A stretch of DNA of 10,023 nucleotides from an uncultured Polyangiaceae bacterium (GTDB lineage: Bacteria > Myxococcota_A > Polyangia > Polyangiales > Houyiibacteriaceae), in the NCBI GenBank assembly GCA_947258625.1, contig CAMYJN010000048.1, positions 1 through 10,023 on the forward strand. The letters run 5' to 3'. The stretch's first letter is position 1; the number at the start of each line of letters is the position of its first letter. Made by a program: the position numbers and the translations under genes. Positions 1,749-10,023 of the stretch are shown here, piece by piece. The notes under the pieces are model-generated. The model was not told the DNA's origin and did no database searches. It worked only from the letters and a program-made list of their open reading frames with translations.

Positions 1749-2243
1749 TCAGGCTCGAGCAGACCCGAACGGATTGGGCTTCCACATGCGAACGCCCAAC
1801 AGGAATGGAACGACCCAGTACGGCCCGTTGAAAGCCCAGAAGATCGCTGCGTTACCTGGCGGCGGCCCGATCCAGTACTCGTAGATCAAAAACTCGGTGC
1901 AGCCATGCAGCATCGCACCGACGTAGACGAGCGCCATGGGCCGGATCCAGTTCTTTCCCTTGATGAACGCGTAGACGAGCACGAGATAAAACGGCCCGTA
2001 GATCATCCCCGAAATACCGGTGTTCACCCGCACGTAGGGGTGATCGGCGAGAAAGAAATGGTCCTGCGCAATCTCGCCGTACCAGCGATTTGCGCGCGAC
2101 CAGAACGCATCTCCTTCGAGCAGCCCGAGCGCGTGCCAGGAGTCCGAGAAGAACGATGAAAATGCAAAGAACGAGAAGCAGAGCACGAAAAAGATGTCTT
2201 TCTTGCGTAAGCTCAGCGGGAGACCGGTACCTGATTCACTCAT
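1749..2243 (-). CDS. EXPERA/TMEM97-like four-helix integral membrane protein
   Basis: 164-aa membrane protein with four hydrophobic segments (about 17-34, 77-96, 102-123, 132-153). Its motif pattern matches what I recall of the EXPERA superfamily, especially eukaryotic TMEM97 (sigma-2 receptor). Helix 1 has FFSDSW with Asp34, then NRWYGEIAQD with Asp61, then YAFIKGKNWIRP at 91-102, then GPYWVVPFLL at 140-149. TMEM97 carries ligand-binding Asp residues in the equivalent FMD and FKD positions and the corresponding YAFLKG-WIR and PYLLIPF segments. Its helix-2 Glu appears to be Ser79 here. EXPERA proteins bind or isomerise sterols or handle neutral lipids; the ligand here is unknown. The frame is open for 55 more codons upstream, but that part overlaps the acyltransferase gene and is low-complexity Ser/Arg. 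The ATG at 2243 has a GGAG ribosome binding site and follows the upstream stop by one base. The assignment rests on remembered motifs, not an alignment. Confidence 0.7.
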   Translation of the reverse strand: MSESGTGLPLSLRKKDIFFVLCFSFFAFSSFFSDSWHALGLLEGDAFWSRANRWYGEIAQDHFFLADHPYVRVNTGISGMIYGPFYLVLVYAFIKGKNWIRPMALVYVGAMLHGCTEFLIYEYWIGPPPGNAAIFWAFNGPYWVVPFLLGVRMWKPNPFGSARA

Positions 2244-2244
2244 C

Positions 2245-3687
2245 TCAACTCCGGGTGGGGGTCGCTGCCGATTTCTGGTTGCTACAGGCTCGTGCCTGCG
2301 CGGCCGTGTGAAGCTCTTGGAACTGCTCGACGATGCCCTCGACGATGTTGTGAACGTCCGGCAGCGCGTCCCAATCCGAATTGAAGCCCCAGAAGACTTT
2401 GCCGGCATAGCTGAGCACGGCCAGCGCGAGCGCCTGATTCGGAAAGAGCGGCATCATCGGATAGATCGCCTGCATTTCGGAACCCAGGAAGTAGAGCGGC
2501 ATCGACGGGCCAGGGACGTTGCTGACGACGACGTTGAACGCACGGTTTCGGGTGGCCGAGCGACTGAGCTGAGCGAAGAAGCGACCACCGATTCGATCGG
2601 CAAGCCCCTCGAGCCAGGACACGCCGAGCGCCTGCTTGCTGTGCTTCAGCTCTTGGGTGGTCTCGACCACGCGTCGTAGGCGCGCAATGGGGTCACGTTC
2701 ACCGACCGGAAGCTGGGCCATGATCATCGCGACGCGATTGCCGAGATCTTTTTCTTTGTCTTTGCGCAGGTTCACCGGAATCAAGGTGCGGAAGTCGATG
2801 TTGTCGGTGGCAGTTCGGTGCTCGCGGAGATACTGACCCAGCGAACCTGCGGCGGTTGTCAGGACAACGTCGTTGATCGTCCCGCCGAGCCCGGCCCGCA
2901 CCTCCTTGATCTCGCGCATCGAAATGTCGGTCCAGTCGAAACGGCGATGCGGACCCACCTGGTCCGGATTGAACGGCGTCTTGGTCGCGGCTCGCCAACC
3001 CAACTTTGAGGCCTCCATCAAACCTTGGACGACGTCGCGCGCCTCCTGCAGAGCGTCGTTCGGCCGCCGAAGAGGCGCGAGCAGCTCAAATGGCGCTCGG
3101 ACTCGCCGAACCATCTCGGTTGCCACGAGCTCCGCACTCCGAGGTGCCGGACGTGGCTTCCACGGTTTCGGCCTACCCGTTCGCTCGAAGGGACGTCGGC
3201 CCAAAAGCGTCTGGATGATGCTCATGCCCGAGATGCCATCGGCCATGCAATGATGGACTTTCGTGACCAGGGCGAACCTGTCGTTCTCGAGGCCGTCGAC
3301 GACCCAGACTTCCCAGGGCGGCTTGTCGATGTCCAGCGGGAGCTCCAGCAAATACCCACAGACCCGCTTGAGGACGCGATCATCGGCGGGTTGCGGCAAG
3401 GCGATTTGCCGAACGTGATAGCGGACGTTGAAGTCTTCGTCGTCTACCCAAATCGGGTGGTCGAAGAGCGGGATTTTGATGAGACGCTGGCGATAGCGGG
3501 GAACCCTTTCGAAAGACCACTCGTAGTTGTTGAGGATCTGCTCGAAATCGAGCCCGCCGTCCTCGGTGCGCAGCGGGCCTGCCTCGAAGATCATGACTGC
3601 CGCTTCGTGCCAGTGCGTGTTCTTCTCCTCAAAACCAAGGAGTGAGGCGTCCAGAGCAGAAAGGCGATCGTAGAAGGTGTGCGACAT
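2245..3687 (-). CDS. Wax ester synthase / diacylglycerol O-acyltransferase (WS/DGAT family)
   Basis: 480-aa acyl-CoA-dependent O-acyltransferase of the Acinetobacter AtfA / mycobacterial Tgs family, a normal full length. It transfers an acyl group to fatty alcohols (wax esters) or diacylglycerol (triacylglycerol), usually at the inner face of the cytoplasmic membrane. The catalytic HHxxxDG motif is HHCMADG at 145-151, preceded by the PLD motif at 117-119. The second half has the ND motif at 272-273, PVNLR at 304-308, LGNRVAM at 315-321 and NVVVSNVPGP at 385-394. The start MSHTFYDRLSALDASLLGFE is the usual family N-terminus. The unrecognised 406-aa gene ends 27 bp upstream and the EXPERA-like gene begins one base after the stop, so the three are probably co-transcribed. 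The best purine-rich stretch upstream, GGGGAG (3707-3702), is 14 nt from the ATG, further than usual. Substrate choice (alcohol or diacylglycerol) cannot be read from sequence. Confidence 0.94.
   Translation of the reverse strand: MSHTFYDRLSALDASLLGFEEKNTHWHEAAVMIFEAGPLRTEDGGLDFEQILNNYEWSFERVPRYRQRLIKIPLFDHPIWVDDEDFNVRYHVRQIALPQPADDRVLKRVCGYLLELPLDIDKPPWEVWVVDGLENDRFALVTKVHHCMADGISGMSIIQTLLGRRPFERTGRPKPWKPRPAPRSAELVATEMVRRVRAPFELLAPLRRPNDALQEARDVVQGLMEASKLGWRAATKTPFNPDQVGPHRRFDWTDISMREIKEVRAGLGGTINDVVLTTAAGSLGQYLREHRTATDNIDFRTLIPVNLRKDKEKDLGNRVAMIMAQLPVGERDPIARLRRVVETTQELKHSKQALGVSWLEGLADRIGGRFFAQLSRSATRNRAFNVVVSNVPGPSMPLYFLGSEMQAIYPMMPLFPNQALALAVLSYAGKVFWGFNSDWDALPDVHNIVEGIVEQFQELHTAAQARACSNQKSAATPTRS
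2249..2252 (-). promoter_or_regulatory. Ribosome binding site that sets the start of the EXPERA-like gene
   Basis: GGAG on the - strand, five bases before the ATG at 2243. It is embedded in the last codons of the acyltransferase gene, whose TGA (2247-2245) is separated from the ATG by one base. This is one of the clearest Shine-Dalgarno sequences in the window. It supports both the short start and translational coupling of the two genes. Confidence 0.65.
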
Positions 3688-3714: not shown

Positions 3715-4935
3715 CTACCCTTTGAAGGCTTCGGCCGACAACCCCCTTTTGCGTCTCGCTCCAAGCACTTTGCGCCGAAACTCCTGGATCACGGGAATCG
3801 GGTCGAGCCAAGCCGACGCATCGGCACGATCGTTATCATGCTCACACATCTCTCCGGCAAAGCCTTCCGGGATTTGGCTGAAGTGCTCGGAAGCATCGGC
3901 GTCTTCATCGAAGTAGTGATACTCGAAGCCCGGCACGAACAGGTCTTCGTCGGCAACCACATCGATGGTGCGAACCCCGAACGACGAGAGCTCCGTCGTC
4001 GTGGCTTGCGGCGGGATGATCCAAACGTGCTTGGGGCCTGCCACAATCAGATACTGCACCTTTCGATTGCGTGAGAGGATGCGGAAGCGCTGGAGATTGC
4101 CGCCGTACATCGCGCTTCTCAGCTCGCTGATCTCCAAGATGCCCTTTGAGAAGTCCGGCTCGAAGCCAGCGACGATCTTGAGCGAAGTCGGGTCGTTCTT
4201 GCGCGTGAACCACGCGATGCTTCGACCGCCGTTGATCAGGTTTCGGCGATCGGCCGCGGCCTTCCGTCGTGGCTCGGTGAAATCTCGATATGGCGCGGTG
4301 CGCGAGGCCGGCGCGCTTCGGAGCAGAAGGTAGAGGGCTTCCTCGTCGTTCAGGGCGTGTCGCGTCTTGCGGTTGAGCGTTTCGAGCGCGGTCTGCATTT
4401 CAAAAGGCAGATCCGTGGTCGACTCGACGCACTCCGTGACTTCATACCCGCCACGCGCCAGCACTTTCACGTCACCTTTGCCGATCCAGAAATCACCGTC
4501 GGTCGCGATGACGTGCGAGGCGGCGCGCCAGATCAGAGACAGATCTTTGTAAAAGATGCGCGGAAAGATCTCCGTCCGACCCGTCTTTCGGTGACGCTGT
4601 ACGACATAAGCGACGAAGAAACGCAGTGCGGGATTCTGCCGAACGTTGGTCAGAAAGAACCGATTATCGAAAAGCGAGATCTCATACTTGGGCGTGTACC
4701 CCGAAGACAGGAGCCCGATCGGGTCGTCTTTGGCTTCACCGGCTGGACGTAGCTTCGCGCCTGAATCGAGGAGCTTGTGGAACTCCTGTGCGACATGGCG
4801 AGGGGTCCGATCCGCGGGCGCGACGCTCGGGACGATGCGAGTAGGAATGGCTGAAGTCATGGCTGGTAGCGACGTAGCGTACTCAGGCCGCACAAACCAG
4901 GAATACCGGCCCTTGCGGTCAACGAGCGCCCGCAT
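3715..4935 (-). CDS. Uncharacterised 406-aa protein, first gene of the WS/DGAT string
   Basis: I do not recognise this protein and propose no function. It has no signal peptide and no convincing membrane helix, so it is probably cytoplasmic. Its first half holds a hydrophobic/aromatic stretch (ISLFDNRFF at 86-94, LRFFVAYVVQ at 104-113) and a region with alternating charge (about 120-170). The second half has a beta-rich pattern: SIAWFTRK at 239-246, LKIVAGFEPDF at 252-262, FRILSRNRKVQYLIVAG at 284-300, VWIIPP at 304-309. A markedly acidic segment (328-350, FDEDADASE) follows, then a basic C-terminal end (RRKVLGARRKR). No known catalytic motif stands out. The start is uncertain: ATG at 4935 is used here, but ATG at 4860 (residue 26) is equally plausible, since neither has a good ribosome binding site and the shorter form leaves more room for a divergent promoter. 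Length and codon pattern support a real gene. Confidence 0.8.
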   Translation of the reverse strand: MRALVDRKGRYSWFVRPEYATSLPAMTSAIPTRIVPSVAPADRTPRHVAQEFHKLLDSGAKLRPAGEAKDDPIGLLSSGYTPKYEISLFDNRFFLTNVRQNPALRFFVAYVVQRHRKTGRTEIFPRIFYKDLSLIWRAASHVIATDGDFWIGKGDVKVLARGGYEVTECVESTTDLPFEMQTALETLNRKTRHALNDEEALYLLLRSAPASRTAPYRDFTEPRRKAAADRRNLINGGRSIAWFTRKNDPTSLKIVAGFEPDFSKGILEISELRSAMYGGNLQRFRILSRNRKVQYLIVAGPKHVWIIPPQATTTELSSFGVRTIDVVADEDLFVPGFEYHYFDEDADASEHFSQIPEGFAGEMCEHDNDRADASAWLDPIPVIQEFRRKVLGARRKRGLSAEAFKG

Positions 4936-4985: not shown

Positions 4986-6152
4986 ATGAACATGACCCCT
5001 CCGATGTCGCGCTGCCTTGCTCACGTCCTCCTCTCGCTATGCGTCCAGATCACGAGCTGCGGCGGTGATGGCTGCGATGCCGGAGGCTGCAGCGGCACCG
5101 GCGGACCGACCGACATCCGTCTAGAGGTCGAGGACTTCATCACCGGCCTCGAAAAACCATGGGACATCGCTTGGCTGCCCAACGGGACTGTCTTGCTGAC
5201 CGAGCGCCCCGGCCGTCTCAAGGTTTACGTCGACGGCGTCGGCGCGGCGCCGTTCGTCGTTGCACCCGACGACGTGGTTGCGCGGGGCGAAGGCGGCATG
5301 ATGGGGATCGAGGTCGACCCGGACTTCACCAACAATGGATACGTCTACGTATGCACTACGTCGAACGAGGGCGGCGACAACGATGTCCGATTGCTGCGGC
5401 TCACATTGCGCACCCCCGACGGAGGCGCCGTGGTCGCGCGCGAGGACATCGTCATCGGAATGCCCTACAGCACTGGACGGCACAGTGGCTGCCGGCCGCG
5501 CTTCGGGCCCGATGGGTGGCTGTGGGTTGGAACCGGCGACGCCGCAATCGGGACGAATCCGCAGGACGACGACTCGCTTGGCGGTAAAGTGCTCCGTGTC
5601 GGACGCGACGGCGCAGCCGCCCCCGACAACGCCCGCGGATTCCGATGGTTTTCAAACGGGCATCGCAACATCCAAGGGATGGCATTTCGATCCGACGGCA
5701 TCGGGATGTCCGCCGAGCACGGCCCATCGATCGACGACGAAATCAATCTGCTCGTGCCTGGCAACTTCGGCTGGGATCCGGTGCCCGGCTACAACGAGTC
5801 GGTTCCGATGACCGATCTCGAGAAGTTCCCAGATGCGGTACCCGCTGTCTGGTCGAGCGGCTCACCCACGCTCGCGCTGGCGGGCGCGACGTTCCTCGAA
5901 GGCAGTGCCTGGGGCAATTGGGATGGGGCCCTTGCGGTGGCCACCTTGAAGGCCGAGCACCTCCACATCTACTTCGTCGACGCCGGGGGCGAGGTGACCG
6001 GCGAAGAACGCGCCATCGAAAACCAAGGGCGCCTCCGCACCCCTCGCCAAGGCCCCGATGGCTTGCTCTACATCACCAACGATGGCGGGAGCGGTGACGG
6101 AAAAGTCCTGCGTGTCACACCGGTGCCCGCACCGAGCACTGACGAGCCGTGA
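4986..6152 (+). CDS. PQQ-dependent aldose/glucose dehydrogenase-type beta-propeller lipoprotein
   Basis: 388-aa secreted enzyme of the soluble glucose dehydrogenase / Asd family (GSDH fold), which oxidises aldose sugars to lactones using PQQ. Blade motifs include LEKPWDIAWLPNG at 55-67, LLTERPGRL at 70-78, GEGGMMGIEVDPDF at 101-114 and GPDGLLYITNDGG at 356-368. The predicted catalytic His is H166 in HSGCR, followed by FGPDGWLWVGTGD (173-185), matching the H-x-x-G-R...FGPDG pattern of this family. NGHRNIQGMAF (224-234) holds the PQQ-facing Arg227, and EHGPSIDDEINLLVPGNFGW (245-264) is another signature. The N-terminus has a hydrophobic stretch and a lipobox ITSC, so Cys25 is probably lipidated; Gly follows it, which favours the outer membrane. 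A Cys/Gly-rich linker (25-40) tethers the propeller. GGA at 4981 suits the ATG at 4992 better than the ATG at 4986, so the start may be two codons later. Substrate is inferred from family only. Confidence 0.88.
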   Translation: MNMTPPMSRCLAHVLLSLCVQITSCGGDGCDAGGCSGTGGPTDIRLEVEDFITGLEKPWDIAWLPNGTVLLTERPGRLKVYVDGVGAAPFVVAPDDVVARGEGGMMGIEVDPDFTNNGYVYVCTTSNEGGDNDVRLLRLTLRTPDGGAVVAREDIVIGMPYSTGRHSGCRPRFGPDGWLWVGTGDAAIGTNPQDDDSLGGKVLRVGRDGAAAPDNARGFRWFSNGHRNIQGMAFRSDGIGMSAEHGPSIDDEINLLVPGNFGWDPVPGYNESVPMTDLEKFPDAVPAVWSSGSPTLALAGATFLEGSAWGNWDGALAVATLKAEHLHIYFVDAGGEVTGEERAIENQGRLRTPRQGPDGLLYITNDGGSGDGKVLRVTPVPAPSTDEP

Positions 6153-6221
6153 GTGCCGCCTACTACGCAATAGCGGCCAGGGTCGACGCGCATTTGAAGG
6201 CGACCTGTTGAGCCAGTCGAC
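6153..6221. terminator. Convergent intergenic gap with inverted repeats, possible terminators
   Basis: This 69-bp gap lies between the 3' ends of the dehydrogenase gene (+) and the binding-protein gene (-). GCCGC (6155-6159) and GCGGC (6173-6177) form a 5-bp stem just after the + strand stop. GGTCGAC (6181-6187) and GTCGACC (6216-6222) form a 7-bp inverted repeat with a 28-nt spacer next to the - strand stop; GGTCG can alternatively pair with CGACC at 6201-6205. No T-run follows any of them, so intrinsic termination is only a guess from position. Confidence 0.3.
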
Positions 6222-7223
6222 CTATTCTGCCGCAGCCGCCTCGACGGCCTGAAGCAAGCTCTTTGGAAAGACGCGGCCGGCCATTCGGTCCCGCACTTTC
6301 TTGGCGGCTGCGTCCCACTCGGCCTTGTACTTGCTGGTATCGGTCGCGGTGATCCCCTTGGTGAGGATGACGTCGTAGGCCTTCTGGTCGTCCCGGCGAA
6401 TTGTCTTGTTGAGCAGCACTTCAACGCGCTCGCAGGTTCGCAGGAACGTCTCCTTGAGGTCCGGCGGAAGCCCGTCGACCTTCTCCTTACGCATCACCAT
6501 GCCCCCCGCGATGATCGCCGAGTTGTGGCCGGTCATGTATTTGACGCGCGTGTACCACTGAAGCGCAACCGCCGTGAGCGCGGACGACGTCACGACGTCG
6601 ACCATCTTGGTCTGAAGCCCGGGATACACTTCGTTCACGCCGAGTCGAACGCCGTTGGCGCCGATCACGTCGTAGAACTCGATGAAAACCAGGTCGTCTT
6701 TCCACATCCAGGGCCGCATCGACTTGATGTCCGAGGGCTTCTCGATGGGTTTCTGTGAAAAGAGCCGGGTCTTTCCCGCGTCCCCCCAGGCCAACATCAC
6801 GAAGCCTTCGTCGTCGAACAGCTTCTCGAAATCCCCGGCCATCTTCGTCCGCACCCGGTCAAGCTTCTCATAGGTATCGAGGAAATTCGGCAAGACCAAG
6901 ATCACCATCGGCCGGACCAGCATGCTCATGCCCGTCATCGTGACGACGCCGCCATCGAGCTGCCCCACGCGCATCTTTCGAACGAAGTCACGCTCATCGC
7001 CTTGAGCGCCACCCGGATAAAAACGCAGCTTCAACCGACCGTCGGTCTCCTTTTCGAGCGTCTGCTTCCAGGCGTTGAGGACCTTCATCCACGACGAGCC
7101 GGCCGGTGCAAGAGATGCGATGCGAAAGGTGATCGCCTCTTCCGCGCGGCTGCTCGGGACGCTTCCTGGGAGGCCCACGAAGACGACGGCCAGGAGGACG
7201 ACGAAAAGGAAATATCGGTTCAC
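6222..7223 (-). CDS. TRAP-type transporter periplasmic solute-binding protein (DctP family)
   Basis: 333-aa periplasmic binding protein of the DctP family, which normally delivers carboxylate-type ligands to a DctQ/DctM membrane pair. A signal peptide is clear: hydrophobic core YFLFVVLLAVVFVGL (4-18) and likely cleavage near SSRA-EE (27/28). The mature start ITFRIASLAPAGSSW (31-45) and LRFYPGGAQGDERD (66-79) are typical of the family. SDIKSMRPW (164-172) supplies Arg170 at the usual carboxylate-binding position, and LGVNEVYPGLQTKMVD (194-209) matches the helix-strand segment before the hinge. The start is GTG; a stop codon in the same frame nine codons upstream excludes any longer form, and there is no good ribosome binding site. 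It follows the Acr1-like gene by 24 bp on the same strand, so it is probably the last gene of that string. No DctQ or DctM gene is in the window, so its transporter partner is elsewhere or absent. Ligand unknown. Confidence 0.88.
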   Translation of the reverse strand: MNRYFLFVVLLAVVFVGLPGSVPSSRAEEAITFRIASLAPAGSSWMKVLNAWKQTLEKETDGRLKLRFYPGGAQGDERDFVRKMRVGQLDGGVVTMTGMSMLVRPMVILVLPNFLDTYEKLDRVRTKMAGDFEKLFDDEGFVMLAWGDAGKTRLFSQKPIEKPSDIKSMRPWMWKDDLVFIEFYDVIGANGVRLGVNEVYPGLQTKMVDVVTSSALTAVALQWYTRVKYMTGHNSAIIAGGMVMRKEKVDGLPPDLKETFLRTCERVEVLLNKTIRRDDQKAYDVILTKGITATDTSKYKAEWDAAAKKVRDRMAGRVFPKSLLQAVEAAAAE

Positions 7224-7247
7224 GGGAAGGGATATACCCGGACCTGG

Positions 7248-8165
7248 CTACGTTCGTCTAGAGCCCCTACGCTTCGCCCTCCGGGTGACCAGCTTGAACA
7301 CCCGCTCGAACATCGCCGCGTCTCCCGAGATGGGCTCCCGCAAGTCTTTCCTGTCTCCTGATTCGGGGTACAGCTGATAGGCTGCGTTCAGCACTCGATC
7401 GATGGTGTTCGGGGCGACTCCGTACGCGAATTCAAAGAGATTTCCGACGGGCGTGGCTACTCGCTTGGGCTGGTGGATGATGCCGTCGACAATCAGGTCA
7501 GCGGCCTGCTCAGCGGTCCGCATGGGAAACGCATCGTAAATGGTGGTTGATGCCATCATGGGTGTCTTGACGAGCGGCATGTAGATGGTCGTCACCTTGA
7601 CCCCGTCCCTGAGTGCTTCCACGGCGAGCACTCGGCTGAACGCGTCGAGCGCCGCCTTGCTGGCAATGTAGGCGCCGTACCGCGGGACGTTCACCTGCAC
7701 CCCGATGGTCGACACGTTGAGGATCTGCCCCTCCTTTTGCGCGCGCATCGCCGGAAGAAAGCCCATGATCAGGCGCACCGCACCGAGGAAGTTGAGCGCC
7801 AACGTGCGCTCGAAGTCGTGAACTCGGTCGTAGGACTTCTGCACGCTTCGGCGAATCGAGATGCCCGCATTGTTGACGAGGATGTCCACATGCCCCTGCT
7901 CCTCGAGGACCGCCGCGATCAAACGCTGCGTGTCTTCGGCGTTCGAAAGGTCTCCGGGGTAGACGAACGCTACACCGCCTCGTTTCTCGATGGCCTTCTT
8001 CATCTCTTCGAGCTTCTCAGCCGAGCGGGCGACCAGAAGTACTCTGGCGCCGGCATCGCTCAAGCGGTTGGCGAGCGCCTCGCCGATTCCACTCGACGCG
8101 CCGGTTATCACGATCGCGCGGCCGGAGACCCGCTCGCGCAGCCGACCTTCTTCGGTGCTGGACAC
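7248..8165 (-). CDS. acr1: Acr1-like short-chain dehydrogenase, probable fatty acyl-CoA reductase
   Basis: 305-aa NAD(P)H-dependent oxidoreductase of the classical SDR fold. The cofactor motif TGASSGIG is at 21-28, NNAG at 98-101, Asn125, Ser152, and the catalytic pair Tyr166/Lys170 in YIASK. Beyond generic SDR features it has segments I recall from Acinetobacter Acr1 and the SDR half of bacterial fatty acyl-CoA reductases: ISIRRSV (102-108), DRVHDFERT (113-121), YMPLVKTPM (195-203), RVATPVG (235-241) and a tail ending LYPESGD (265-271). Acr1 is a stand-alone enzyme of about 295 aa that reduces fatty acyl-CoA to aldehyde for alcohol and wax ester synthesis. The neighbouring AGPS needs fatty alcohol as substrate, which fits. 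The alternative is an acyl/alkyl-DHAP reductase, the step after AGPS. The start is GTG without a strong ribosome binding site; no ATG, GTG or TTG is seen in the gap upstream. The C-terminal end is strongly basic (RRAKRRGSRR). Confidence 0.85.
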   Translation of the reverse strand: MSSTEEGRLRERVSGRAIVITGASSGIGEALANRLSDAGARVLLVARSAEKLEEMKKAIEKRGGVAFVYPGDLSNAEDTQRLIAAVLEEQGHVDILVNNAGISIRRSVQKSYDRVHDFERTLALNFLGAVRLIMGFLPAMRAQKEGQILNVSTIGVQVNVPRYGAYIASKAALDAFSRVLAVEALRDGVKVTTIYMPLVKTPMMASTTIYDAFPMRTAEQAADLIVDGIIHQPKRVATPVGNLFEFAYGVAPNTIDRVLNAAYQLYPESGDRKDLREPISGDAAMFERVFKLVTRRAKRRGSRRT

Positions 8166-8234
8166 CTGCGAATCGTAGCCGACGGGATGCGATCTGCGTC
8201 GAAAAAGATCGGCTATCGTTCCGCCTCGCGGCGA
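8166..8234 (-). other. Intergenic gap in the AGPS-Acr1 string with two competing hairpins
   Basis: This 69-bp gap between the AGPS stop and the Acr1-like GTG holds two overlapping inverted repeats. TAGCCGA (8176-8182) pairs with TCGGCTA (8209-8215), 7 bp over a 26-nt spacer. CGATCT (8190-8195) pairs with AGATCG (8206-8211), 6 bp over a 10-nt loop. They share bases 8209-8211, so they cannot both form fully. On the transcribed strand a T-run lies in the loop and not after a stem, so this is not a normal terminator; a role in mRNA processing or attenuation is possible but unproven. Confidence 0.3.
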
Positions 8235-9950
8235 TCACGGCATGCGGCGTTGGTCATCCGGCAGGTCGAGCGCAAGGGTGCCGCCCGGGTTGAGCACGTT
8301 CCGGGGATCGAAGTGACGCTTGAGCGCACGAAACACCTCGAGCTCGTTGCTGCCGATCTGACCTTCGAGCCAGGGCGCGGTCATCTTCCCGATGCCGTGG
8401 TGGTGGCTCATCGTCGCGCCGGAGGCCTGAACGGCGTCGAGAATCCCGCGGTGAAATTCCAGGAACTCCTGGTGACCCATTTTCGCGATGAAGATGAAGT
8501 ATAGATTCGCGCCCTGCGGGTAGCAGTGTGACATGTGGGTCATGCAGACCGTCTGCGGTCGGCTCTTCACGTACGCCCGGACTTGCTCGTGCACTTTCGG
8601 AAGCTCGTCCCAGTTGGTGGCGCACTCGAGGGTGTCGATGAGAATGCCATAATCCTGCAGGTCTTCGCGCATGTACGGATCGGCAAAGCGACCGTGCTCC
8701 CACTTCTTGGTAATGAATCCGGTGGTGTACATCCCGCCCCGCGCTTTGCAGACCTGGCGCAGGCGGCGTTTGACCATTGCCGTGTAGGCGCGGTCTCCGT
8801 CGACAGTCCCCAACATCAGGCAACGCTCGCCCTTTTTGAACCCTCGCAGGCTCACGAGTGTGTCGATTGGCGTGCCCTCGACCCCGTAGAGCTTGAAGGC
8901 AACGTCGGTTTCCTCCGGGTCGGACAATCGAAAGACCGACGGAACCCCAAATTCGCCCTGCATGATCTCTCGTACCGCGGCCGTTCCGCTCTGCCAATCC
9001 GGAAAGATGAAGCTGAAGCGCCGCGTGTTCTCAGGCTGATAGCGAAAGACTTTCAAGGTCACCGCCACCAGGATCCCGTACGCCCCTTCGCTTCCGATCA
9101 TGATCTGATCGAGGTTCGGTCCTGTAGAATACGCGGGGACTTCGACAGTTTTGATCGTGCCAACCGGCGTGACGTACTCCTGGCTCAGCACCAGATCTTC
9201 CGCCTTGCCGTAGTACGTCGAATTCTGTCCCGCGCCGCGCGTCACCACCCAGCCGCCTGCCGACGAGAACTCGAACGATTGTGGGAAATGACCGCAGGTA
9301 TACGCGTGCGGCGCGTTGAAACCCTCGCGGGCACCATTGAGGGCTGCTTCGAGATCAGGCCCGAGAATCCCGGGTTCCACCGTGACCGTTTGATTGACTG
9401 TATTGAGGGACAGGACGCGATTCATGTGCGTGCCGAGATGGATCGAAACCCCGCCTTTCACACACTCGGTGCCTCGAGTCACGCTCGAGCCTGCGGCGTA
9501 GGTGTAGAGAGGGATCTCTTGCTCGTGGCAGTAGTGAACGATCTGCTCGACATCGTCTCGGTCGCGCGGGTGAAGCACCAAGTCGGGAAGGTTTTCTACC
9601 TTGTGGTCGCGGAGGCGAAGAGCGTCGATCATCGTCTTGCCGTAGGACACACGAAGCCTCGAGTAGACATCGTCGCTCACGTTCTCGTCGCCCAGCAGAC
9701 GGCGGAAGAAGCTGACCTGATCGGAGCTGAGCGAAATCGAAGCGTCCGCCATCACCTCTTCGAGGCCGAGCTTCTGCGGCTGCTCGAAGTGCTCGTCATC
9801 GAGCTCAAACGTCTCCTTCATCAAGGCGTAGAGCCTCGGATTCGGATGCTTGTAAGCCTCTGGCGCGCCCCACTTGAATGCCGAACGATAAGAACGCGAT
9901 GGAAGCGCCCCCTCGAACCACTGCGGAGTGAAGGAATCCTTGTCCGTCAT
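8235..9950 (-). CDS. agpS: Alkyldihydroxyacetonephosphate synthase (AGPS-like FAD enzyme)
   Basis: 571-aa flavoprotein of the VAO/PCMH FAD-binding family that resembles animal AGPS. AGPS swaps the acyl chain of acyl-DHAP for a fatty alcohol, forming the ether bond of ether lipids. The PCMH-type FAD domain spans about 122-305, with a slightly degenerate FAD loop (YAAGSSVTRG, 151-160). AGPS-specific signatures follow: GHFPQSFEFSSAGGWVVTRG (220-239) contains His221, equivalent to the active-site His in the animal GHEPDS motif. VPSVFRLSD (336-344) supplies the phosphate-binding Arg341. LYFIF (483-487) carries a candidate catalytic Tyr. SHHHGIGK (515-522) is the triple-His motif. The C-terminal FDPRNVLNPGG (547-557) closes the fold. 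The frame is open 13 codons further to a GTG at 9989, but the ATG at 9950 overlaps the stop of the upstream frame as ATGA and is preferred. The Acr1-like gene is 69 bp downstream. No DHAP acyltransferase is in the window. Confidence 0.87.
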   Translation of the reverse strand: MTDKDSFTPQWFEGALPSRSYRSAFKWGAPEAYKHPNPRLYALMKETFELDDEHFEQPQKLGLEEVMADASISLSSDQVSFFRRLLGDENVSDDVYSRLRVSYGKTMIDALRLRDHKVENLPDLVLHPRDRDDVEQIVHYCHEQEIPLYTYAAGSSVTRGTECVKGGVSIHLGTHMNRVLSLNTVNQTVTVEPGILGPDLEAALNGAREGFNAPHAYTCGHFPQSFEFSSAGGWVVTRGAGQNSTYYGKAEDLVLSQEYVTPVGTIKTVEVPAYSTGPNLDQIMIGSEGAYGILVAVTLKVFRYQPENTRRFSFIFPDWQSGTAAVREIMQGEFGVPSVFRLSDPEETDVAFKLYGVEGTPIDTLVSLRGFKKGERCLMLGTVDGDRAYTAMVKRRLRQVCKARGGMYTTGFITKKWEHGRFADPYMREDLQDYGILIDTLECATNWDELPKVHEQVRAYVKSRPQTVCMTHMSHCYPQGANLYFIFIAKMGHQEFLEFHRGILDAVQASGATMSHHHGIGKMTAPWLEGQIGSNELEVFRALKRHFDPRNVLNPGGTLALDLPDDQRRMP

Positions 9951-10023
9951 GCTTTGTCTCTTTTCGTCGGTTTGACCGGCATGTCCCACGGAGTGCCCAT
10001 GAGCGCCAGCTTCATTCGCGCGA
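9947..10023 (-). CDS. C-terminal fragment of an unidentified gene upstream of AGPS
   Basis: A second - strand frame is open from the window's right edge to a TGA at 9949-9947 that overlaps the AGPS ATG by four bases (ATGA). The visible tail reads ARMKLALMGTPWDMPVKP (18 residues), then a basic end TKRDKA. The overlap is a typical sign of translational coupling inside an operon. Only about 24 residues are visible, and I do not recognise the family. The call rests on the overlap and the open frame; a chance open frame of this length is possible. Confidence 0.55.
   Translation of the reverse strand, partial: ARMKLALMGTPWDMPVKPTKRDKA
9957..9961 (-). promoter_or_regulatory. Weak ribosome binding site before the AGPS start
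   Basis: AGAGA on the - strand, six bases before the ATG at 9950, inside the last codons of the upstream partial gene. It is a poor match to GGAGG, but together with the ATGA overlap it favours this start over the GTG at 9989. Confidence 0.4.

Follow-up and report, generated by a model that had tools for sequence, protein, structure and literature searches.

Which enzyme supplies the fatty alcohol for ether-lipid synthesis in aerobic bacteria is, according to the available text of PMC9131029, unresolved even in Myxococcus xanthus. The same question is raised by a stretch of DNA from an uncultured Polyangiaceae bacterium, the window, which comprises 10,023 bases and is the entire contig C48 of a fragmented assembly (3.5 Mb, 80% complete). 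On its - strand, a gene for a flavoprotein resembling alkylglycerone-phosphate synthase (AGPS) is followed by a gene for a short-chain dehydrogenase/reductase (SDR) of the Acr1 type (Table 1). An earlier note on this DNA described the two genes, correctly in order and position, as a self-contained ether-lipid module. Half of that description stands: a reductase of Acr1 type is indeed paired with AGPS, but the reading as a self-contained module is not supported. We propose, with a probability of roughly one half, that the two genes form a supply arrangement for the synthesis of alkyl ether lipids.

By its sequence the SDR is an Acr1-type reductase. It matches Pfam family adh_short, and its best NCBIfam model is PRK07201, to positions 362-632 of which (of 657) its residues 7-277 align with 361.8 bits; the cut-off of 549 is not reached, the N-terminal part of the model being absent from the SDR. 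It thus has no N-terminal extended-SDR domain and falls outside the two-domain fatty acyl-CoA reductases (FACoARs; PRK07201/AcrB). It is 51% identical to Acr1 of Acinetobacter baylyi ADP1 (P0123) over 264 amino acids (285 bits) and up to 60% identical to the C-terminal domains of FACoARs; the best score against any solved SDR is 110.5 bits, and 11-beta-HSD types score about 80. A maximum likelihood tree was built from 53 sequences: 13 SDRs of the gene pair from the genus (pair-SDRs), six Acr1, 14 FACoAR C-termini, two proteins from the order and 18 other SDRs. The pair-SDRs form one clade (support 100/99), which joins Acr1, all 14 FACoAR C-termini and the two order proteins with support of 100/98, leaving the 18 other SDRs outside, although several of the outgroup SDRs are long branches flagged by the tree tool. 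The grouping with Acr1 and fatty acyl-CoA reductases that the earlier note had predicted is thereby recovered, and assignment to general FabG-type SDRs was rejected. A narrower clade (96/86) contains the pair-SDRs, Acr1 and eight FACoAR C-terminal domains.

The SDR keeps residues G22, R47, N99, S152, Y166 and K170, and an arginine after beta-2, which we take to be an NADPH-type mark, is present in 13/13 pair-SDRs. Of the three segments that had been likened to Acr1, two hold: the tested positions of DFERT (D, R) and MPLVKTPM (M, P, T, M) are identical in all 13 pair-SDRs and Acr1. The first M of MPLV is replaced by P in 18/18 other SDRs and occurs in 8/14 two-domain reductases as well; likeness in these two segments is, on the alignment, more than chance. 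The third segment, the LYPESGD tail, shows a weak likeness at the alignment end (LYPES vs LFPSS). The probable reaction of the SDR is the reduction of fatty acyl-CoA to fatty aldehyde.

The AGPS-like protein has VAO-type architecture with FAD_binding_4 and FAD-oxidase_C domains (Pfam, 102.2 and 118.3 bits), a combination that is not AGPS-specific because glycolate oxidases have both too. Its nearest solved relatives and closest folds are AGPS. The catalytic Arg, Arg and Tyr of the Dictyostelium enzyme (R352, R447, Y508) correspond to R354, R441 and Y497 of the window protein, and the His triad of AGPS, taken here as a functional site, to H529-531. These six residues are identical in 44/44 subfamily rows of our residue table and in 23/23 of the second of two AGPS trees; only the last His is common to four glcD-like rows, which score under the TIGR00387 cut-off and are not proven glycolate oxidases. 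Six rows labelled 'glcD_like' in the first tree (76 rows, quick) keep the counterparts of Arg419/Tyr578 and the His triad and were renamed type 4. The second tree, a quick maximum likelihood tree without bootstrap, comprises 42 of the 76 rows and the four glcD-like rows; type-4 row L124, near-identical to L123, was left out, and L130 was reclassified as type 4 instead of type 2. All AGPS-like rows together with eukaryotic AGPS are split from the glcD-like rows (SH-aLRT 100), as anticipated in the earlier note, and the window subfamily is united with eukaryotic AGPS and types 2 and 3 (SH-aLRT 96). Nearest structures, folds, tree and catalytic residues thus reject a glycolate/D-lactate oxidase, and the protein is predicted to exchange acyl for alkyl on dihydroxyacetone phosphate (DHAP). 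Of its two candidate starts, the ATG at 9950 favoured earlier is likelier than the GTG at 9989 because the first start codon of the frame in genomes G012, G006 and G009 lies at the Met corresponding to window residue 14.

Two side observations concern AGPS-like genes of the genus. A second AGPS-like protein (L095:9744-10913, contig C28 of G000) belongs to the type-2 rows, which keep Tyr and the His triad and in 12/18 cases have no Arg515 counterpart; this group may have another activity. The AGPS of G014 (L057:9423-10756) is split in two pieces in different frames, which may be a sequencing error.

Conservation of the pair was followed through 193 genomes, 19 of which belong to the genus (the window's own included) and 174 lie outside it. 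With identities of at least 84% for AGPS, fragments counted, and at least 75% for the SDR, AGPS is present in 14/19 genus genomes, the SDR in 14/19 and both in 13/19; G013, G016, G017 and G018 have neither. Twelve of the 13 two-gene genomes carry both genes on one contig and one strand, with the SDR downstream of AGPS in all 12, and in G006 they lie on different contigs. The gap in the window is 69 bases. In eight genomes (G000, G001, G002, G004, G005, G009, G010, G014) the spacing is below 100 bases or the genes slightly overlap. In the other four (G007, G011, G012, G015) it amounts to about 1-1.9 kb; three of these distant pairs enclose a carbonic-anhydrase-like gene, and two of the three a GNAT-like gene as well. 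Co-occurrence by itself is no independent sign of shared function, because adjacent genes are inherited together. Both genes look to be under purifying selection, dN/dS lying at 0.066-0.114 (SDR) and 0.045-0.079 (AGPS) in 8/8 genome pairs, ratios that are rough where dS exceeds 1 (5/8 pairs for the SDR, 3/8 for AGPS). The order kept across insertions, taken with low dN/dS, offers modest evidence for shared function.

In the supply arrangement that we propose, the two genes may be co-transcribed and their products would meet in one pathway. The SDR would reduce long-chain acyl-CoA with NADPH to fatty aldehyde, which would pass to fatty alcohol by an unlinked aldehyde reductase, or partly by the SDR itself. 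AGPS would then put the alcohol into alkyl-DHAP, and unlinked enzymes would further reduce and acylate the latter.

Several observations weigh against this proposal, beginning with the distribution of the pair, which looks genus-specific. Outside the genus, 7/174 genomes contain a match to the SDR with an E-value of 1e-50 or lower. Five of these have it on a different contig from their listed AGPS matches; of the other two, G125 is without a listed AGPS match and G135 has one. Copies of the same AGPS subfamily with 46-51% identity occur in the order at eight loci, to which the genus itself contributes three (in G003, G016 and G018); an Acr1-type SDR is absent from the fetched stretches of 8/8, and three of the eight adjoin a GlpD-like gene. 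A wider set came from a scan of named genomes (including Myxococcales bacterium SG8_38) with an AGPS alignment, whose best 80 loci comprise 12 from the genus and 68 others (L149-L164, L166-L216, L218), with flanks of up to 8 kb a side, shorter at contig ends. The 68 non-genus loci show 54-64% identity and come from entries titled Bacillota, Spirochaetota, Chloroflexota, Thermotogota, Mycoplasmatota, Desulfobacterales and others; L150 (63%) carries a Myxococcota label. An SDR of the Acr1 clade is found in 0/68 flanks, the best match (107 bits, L215) falling among other SDRs in the tree. Conservation of the pair holds inside the genus and fails beyond it.

The neighbours of these 68 genes are of another kind. 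By tblastn, 49 flanks contain an FGGY-like kinase gene, 40 a GlpA-like, 22 a GlpD-like and 11 a FadR-like regulator gene. Leaving the regulator aside, 67/68 flanks have one or more of these genes, and 42/68 have the kinase plus a dehydrogenase-like gene. The 'like' is deliberate, as example FGGY, GlpA-like, GlpD and oxidoreductase proteins score under their NCBIfam cut-offs; the one FadR-like gene checked of the 11, that of L197, scores 224.7 bits (cut-off 189). None of the FGGY-, GlpA- and GlpD-like genes was detected by tblastn in the 12 genus loci, though the stretch upstream of AGPS is cut off in the window, this being the whole contig. The genus thus has the AGPS of the subfamily without its kinase and dehydrogenase-like neighbours, with a reductase there instead. 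The sister of the genus AGPS clade is a sequence from a Chloroflexota assembly (98, second AGPS tree); as these are single assembled contigs and L150 is placed differently in the two AGPS trees, the data point to neither a donor nor a direction of transfer. Among the 68 loci a cluster recurs that consists of an FGGY-like kinase, a GlpA-like protein and an NAD(P)/FAD oxidoreductase-like protein with a small protein, or of a GlpD-like protein, sometimes with FadR-/GntR-like regulators. The small protein, presumably DUF1667, has no NCBIfam match.

Other adverse points concern the proteins and their genomic setting. Within the genus, G003 has AGPS without the SDR, which is absent from the 1.3 kb of contig beyond AGPS, and G008 has the SDR without AGPS. 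The AGPS-like protein is 28% identical to the mammalian (guinea-pig) and Dictyostelium enzymes, which is low. The SDR had been called the alcohol-forming step, and this was overstated: in the accessible text of two reports Acr1 forms aldehyde and does not reduce aldehydes (PMC5806253, PMC11948995), though Mycobacterium tuberculosis FCR2, a stand-alone 48% relative of Acr1, is described in part of a third as giving alcohol as well as aldehyde in lysate of E. coli (PMC3522743). In 16/19 genus genomes, the window's own not among them, there is an additional reductase match within an open frame exceeding 500 amino acids. By identity to the pair SDR these matches split into one set at about 57% and another at 42-45%, and three frames checked (L110, L112, L114) are two-domain PRK07201 reductases (682-843 bits). 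As this type is known to make alcohol, the SDR need not be the alcohol source. Paralogues of wax ester synthase/diacylglycerol acyltransferase (WS/DGAT), for which each of 13 genus genomes has 2-9 matches, are possible other users of this aldehyde or alcohol. Neither gene of the pair can be identified as a DHAP acyltransferase, an alkyl-DHAP reductase or an aldehyde reductase, and the pair encodes neither acyl-DHAP synthesis nor alkyl-DHAP reduction; a PF01553 acyltransferase and a YegS-type kinase neighbour the pair in some relatives, and the former is present at 76% identity or more in 4/13 genus genomes and without match in the window's genome at its 80% completeness. In M. xanthus, finally, loss of MXAN_1676 had a minor effect according to the available text (PMC9131029).

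The strongest rival, which we nonetheless consider unlikely, is that the SDR is an ordinary Acr1 feeding aldehyde or alcohol to WS/DGAT for wax esters, its adjacency to AGPS being incidental or secondary. Besides the paralogues just mentioned, a WS/DGAT gene lies in the window itself. Acr1 is known for its role in wax-ester synthesis, and in the accessible part of PMC11948995 AcrB (PRK07201) is accompanied by WS/DGAT in 94% of cases. However, a + strand glucose/sorbosone-dehydrogenase-like gene separates WS/DGAT from the SDR and makes one transcript of the two unlikely. An orthologue of the window WS/DGAT at 72% identity or more is present in 7/13 genus genomes; the other six have no WS/DGAT above 47% to the window's (best 29-47%), with other paralogues present, and five of the six keep the SDR. 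Its constant neighbour is AGPS, in 12/12 same-contig cases.

Rather more doubtful is a catabolic pair, in which AGPS would split alkyl-DHAP with a fatty acid into acyl-DHAP and alcohol, and the SDR would act as an acylating aldehyde dehydrogenase yielding acyl-CoA for beta-oxidation. The 42 loci with both FGGY-like kinase and GlpA/GlpD-like gene, many of whose lineages are fermenting anaerobes, and the 11 flanks with a FadR-like gene are consistent with it, and one source names Acr1 (P0123) hexadecanal dehydrogenase, acylating. Genes for acyl-CoA dehydrogenase, CoA-transferase and BKACE also lie upstream in the genus clusters, but they are variously oriented and may be unrelated. The known AGPS reaction is synthetic (PMC3509576), the kinase and dehydrogenase genes are missing from the genus loci, and no alcohol-oxidising enzyme was identified. 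A broader version, which we hold to be even less probable, would have the whole AGPS subfamily cleave or turn over ether lipids: in Clostridia, Spirochaetota, Chloroflexota and others, kinase and GlpA/GlpD-like enzymes would make alkyl-DHAP from alkylglycerol and a reversed AGPS would release the alcohol with no need for oxygen, and in the genus the SDR would return the chain to acyl-CoA. Such an oxygen-independent route for cleaving 1-O-alkyl ethers would, if true, be new, since the available text of PMC9192799 presents AGMO as the sole enzyme capable of cleaving this bond.

That the two genes share no function is very unlikely. The AGPS-like protein would then use another substrate and the SDR act elsewhere, or a GST-like gene upstream would mark an aryl-ether route. 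VAO-type phenol oxidases are indeed remote relatives of the AGPS-like protein, and a GST-domain gene (about 390 amino acids; for example L048:6685-7863 and L140:3978-5213) overlaps or abuts the AGPS start in 10/12 genus loci and in 0/68 others; of the remaining two, L217 starts inside AGPS and L147 shows no GST gene. Yet the GST-domain protein gave weak, unspecific matches (25.4 bits at best), none of the 19 listed being named beta-etherase, and all catalytic residues of AGPS are kept, against one His common to glcD-like rows. The classical SDRs DHRS7B and Ayr1 suggest the least likely reading of all: an SDR placed directly after AGPS suits the next step of the pathway, alkyl-DHAP reduction (PexRAP/DHRS7B or Ayr1 step; DHRS7B is named alkylglycerone phosphate reductase in the accessible text of PMC13200781), but the Acr1-type MPLV motif and the far higher score with Acr1 than with any solved SDR, in a comparison that lay outside DHRS7B and Ayr1 sequences, speak against it.

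The supply arrangement resembles several known systems in part. In the same phylum, the MXAN_1676-1674 operon of M. xanthus (AGPS with a FAR1-like/GNPAT-like fusion), considered here with ElbD, places AGPS beside a predicted fatty acyl reductase and is implicated in alkyl ether lipids; its reductase, however, is FAR1-like and carries a fused acyltransferase domain, and its AGPS is about 42% identical to the human enzyme, against 28% to guinea-pig for the window's (available text of PMC9131029; we compared MXAN_1676 by description). FAR1-type enzymes are another type of SDR than that of the window: the five Pfam families detected at E 0.001 do not include PF07993 (NAD_binding_4), the FAR1-type mark, and a FAR1-type search of the genome gave 14 NAD_binding_4 matches, the best of which, the one looked at, is a 355-aa frame beside a frame named by eye as coaE-like. 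PA3026-PA3023 of Pseudomonas aeruginosa (GliR regulon) encode an FAD oxidoreductase, GlpD, an FGGY kinase and a YegS lipid kinase. The kinase/GlpD/oxidoreductase layout of PA3026-PA3024 matches the neighbours of the relatives of the window AGPS, a likeness in gene layout. An AGPS-type enzyme and a route from glycerol to alkylglycerone phosphate were proposed for these genes, and their deletion had no effect on growth in tested media; the accessible text mentions no Acr1-type reductase in this operon (PMC8151288), and with GlpD- and FGGY-like genes absent from 12/12 genus loci the pair is not an operon of this type. A. baylyi Acr1 is likewise a stand-alone SDR of about 300 amino acids, but it serves wax esters and falls in a separate sub-clade from the pair-SDRs, and the two-domain reductases (AcrB, PRK07201; Maqu_2507, Mycobacterium tuberculosis FCR1) have the N-terminal extended-SDR domain that the window SDR lacks. 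In Ca. Promineifilum breve, FcrA lies nine genes away from AGPS, and an acyl-CoA reductase supplying AGPS has been suggested there; FcrA, however, is HMG-CoA-reductase-like and not an SDR (available text of PMC11948995).

The AGPS-Acr1 pair was not found described in the literature searched; PMC11948995, in its accessible part, joins Acr1, AGPS and ether lipid without this pair. As judged from gene content, known parts stand here in an arrangement not found described, a variant of established ether-lipid gene neighbourhoods that is particular to this lineage. A genus with an Acr1-type reductase directly behind AGPS offers a compact candidate for the fatty-alcohol source, from a family known for wax esters. 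The bacterial AGPS subfamily as a whole, in the loci examined, stands almost always beside glycerol-3-phosphate-dehydrogenase-like and FGGY-kinase-like genes.

Table 1. Features of the window.
Feature	Coordinates	Strand	Remarks
SDR, Acr1-type short-chain dehydrogenase/reductase	7248-8165	-	305 aa; predicted to reduce fatty acyl-CoA to aldehyde with NADPH
AGPS-like (alkylglycerone-phosphate synthase family) flavoprotein	8235-9989 (GTG, 584 aa) or 8235-9950 (ATG, 571 aa)	-	
DctP-type TRAP solute-binding protein	6222-7223	-	PF03480 127.5 bits; TRAP_S1 272.5 bits, cut-off 50
Glucose/sorbosone-dehydrogenase-like (GSDH)	4986-6152	+	
Conserved gene without Pfam or NCBIfam match	3715-4935	-	406 aa
WS/DGAT (wax ester synthase/diacylglycerol acyltransferase)	2245-3687	-	WS_DGAT_cat + WS_DGAT_C; TIGR02946 384.7 bits, cut-off 310
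EXPERA-domain (EBP superfamily) frame overlapping WS/DGAT end	1749-2408	-	
DEAD-box helicase frame at contig end	3-1724	+	

Close homologues carry Myxococcales/Polyangiales labels in their source databases. The order of transcription on the - strand is AGPS-like, SDR, DctP-like; the DctP gene lies 24 bases downstream of the SDR and is perhaps transcribed together with it. A scan of 6100-8400 gave no promoter-like signal and two terminator-like ones, against 1.8 expected. The DctP gene directly follows the SDR also in G004, G007, G014 and G015, and no TRAP membrane subunits lie beside it within the window. The gene of the 406-aa protein is directly upstream of WS/DGAT here as well as in G004, G010 and G012, the neighbourhood in G004 including a neutral/alkaline ceramidase gene (L047:1587-3650, 493.6 bits). 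The EXPERA-domain frame adjoins WS/DGAT also in G010 and G012.

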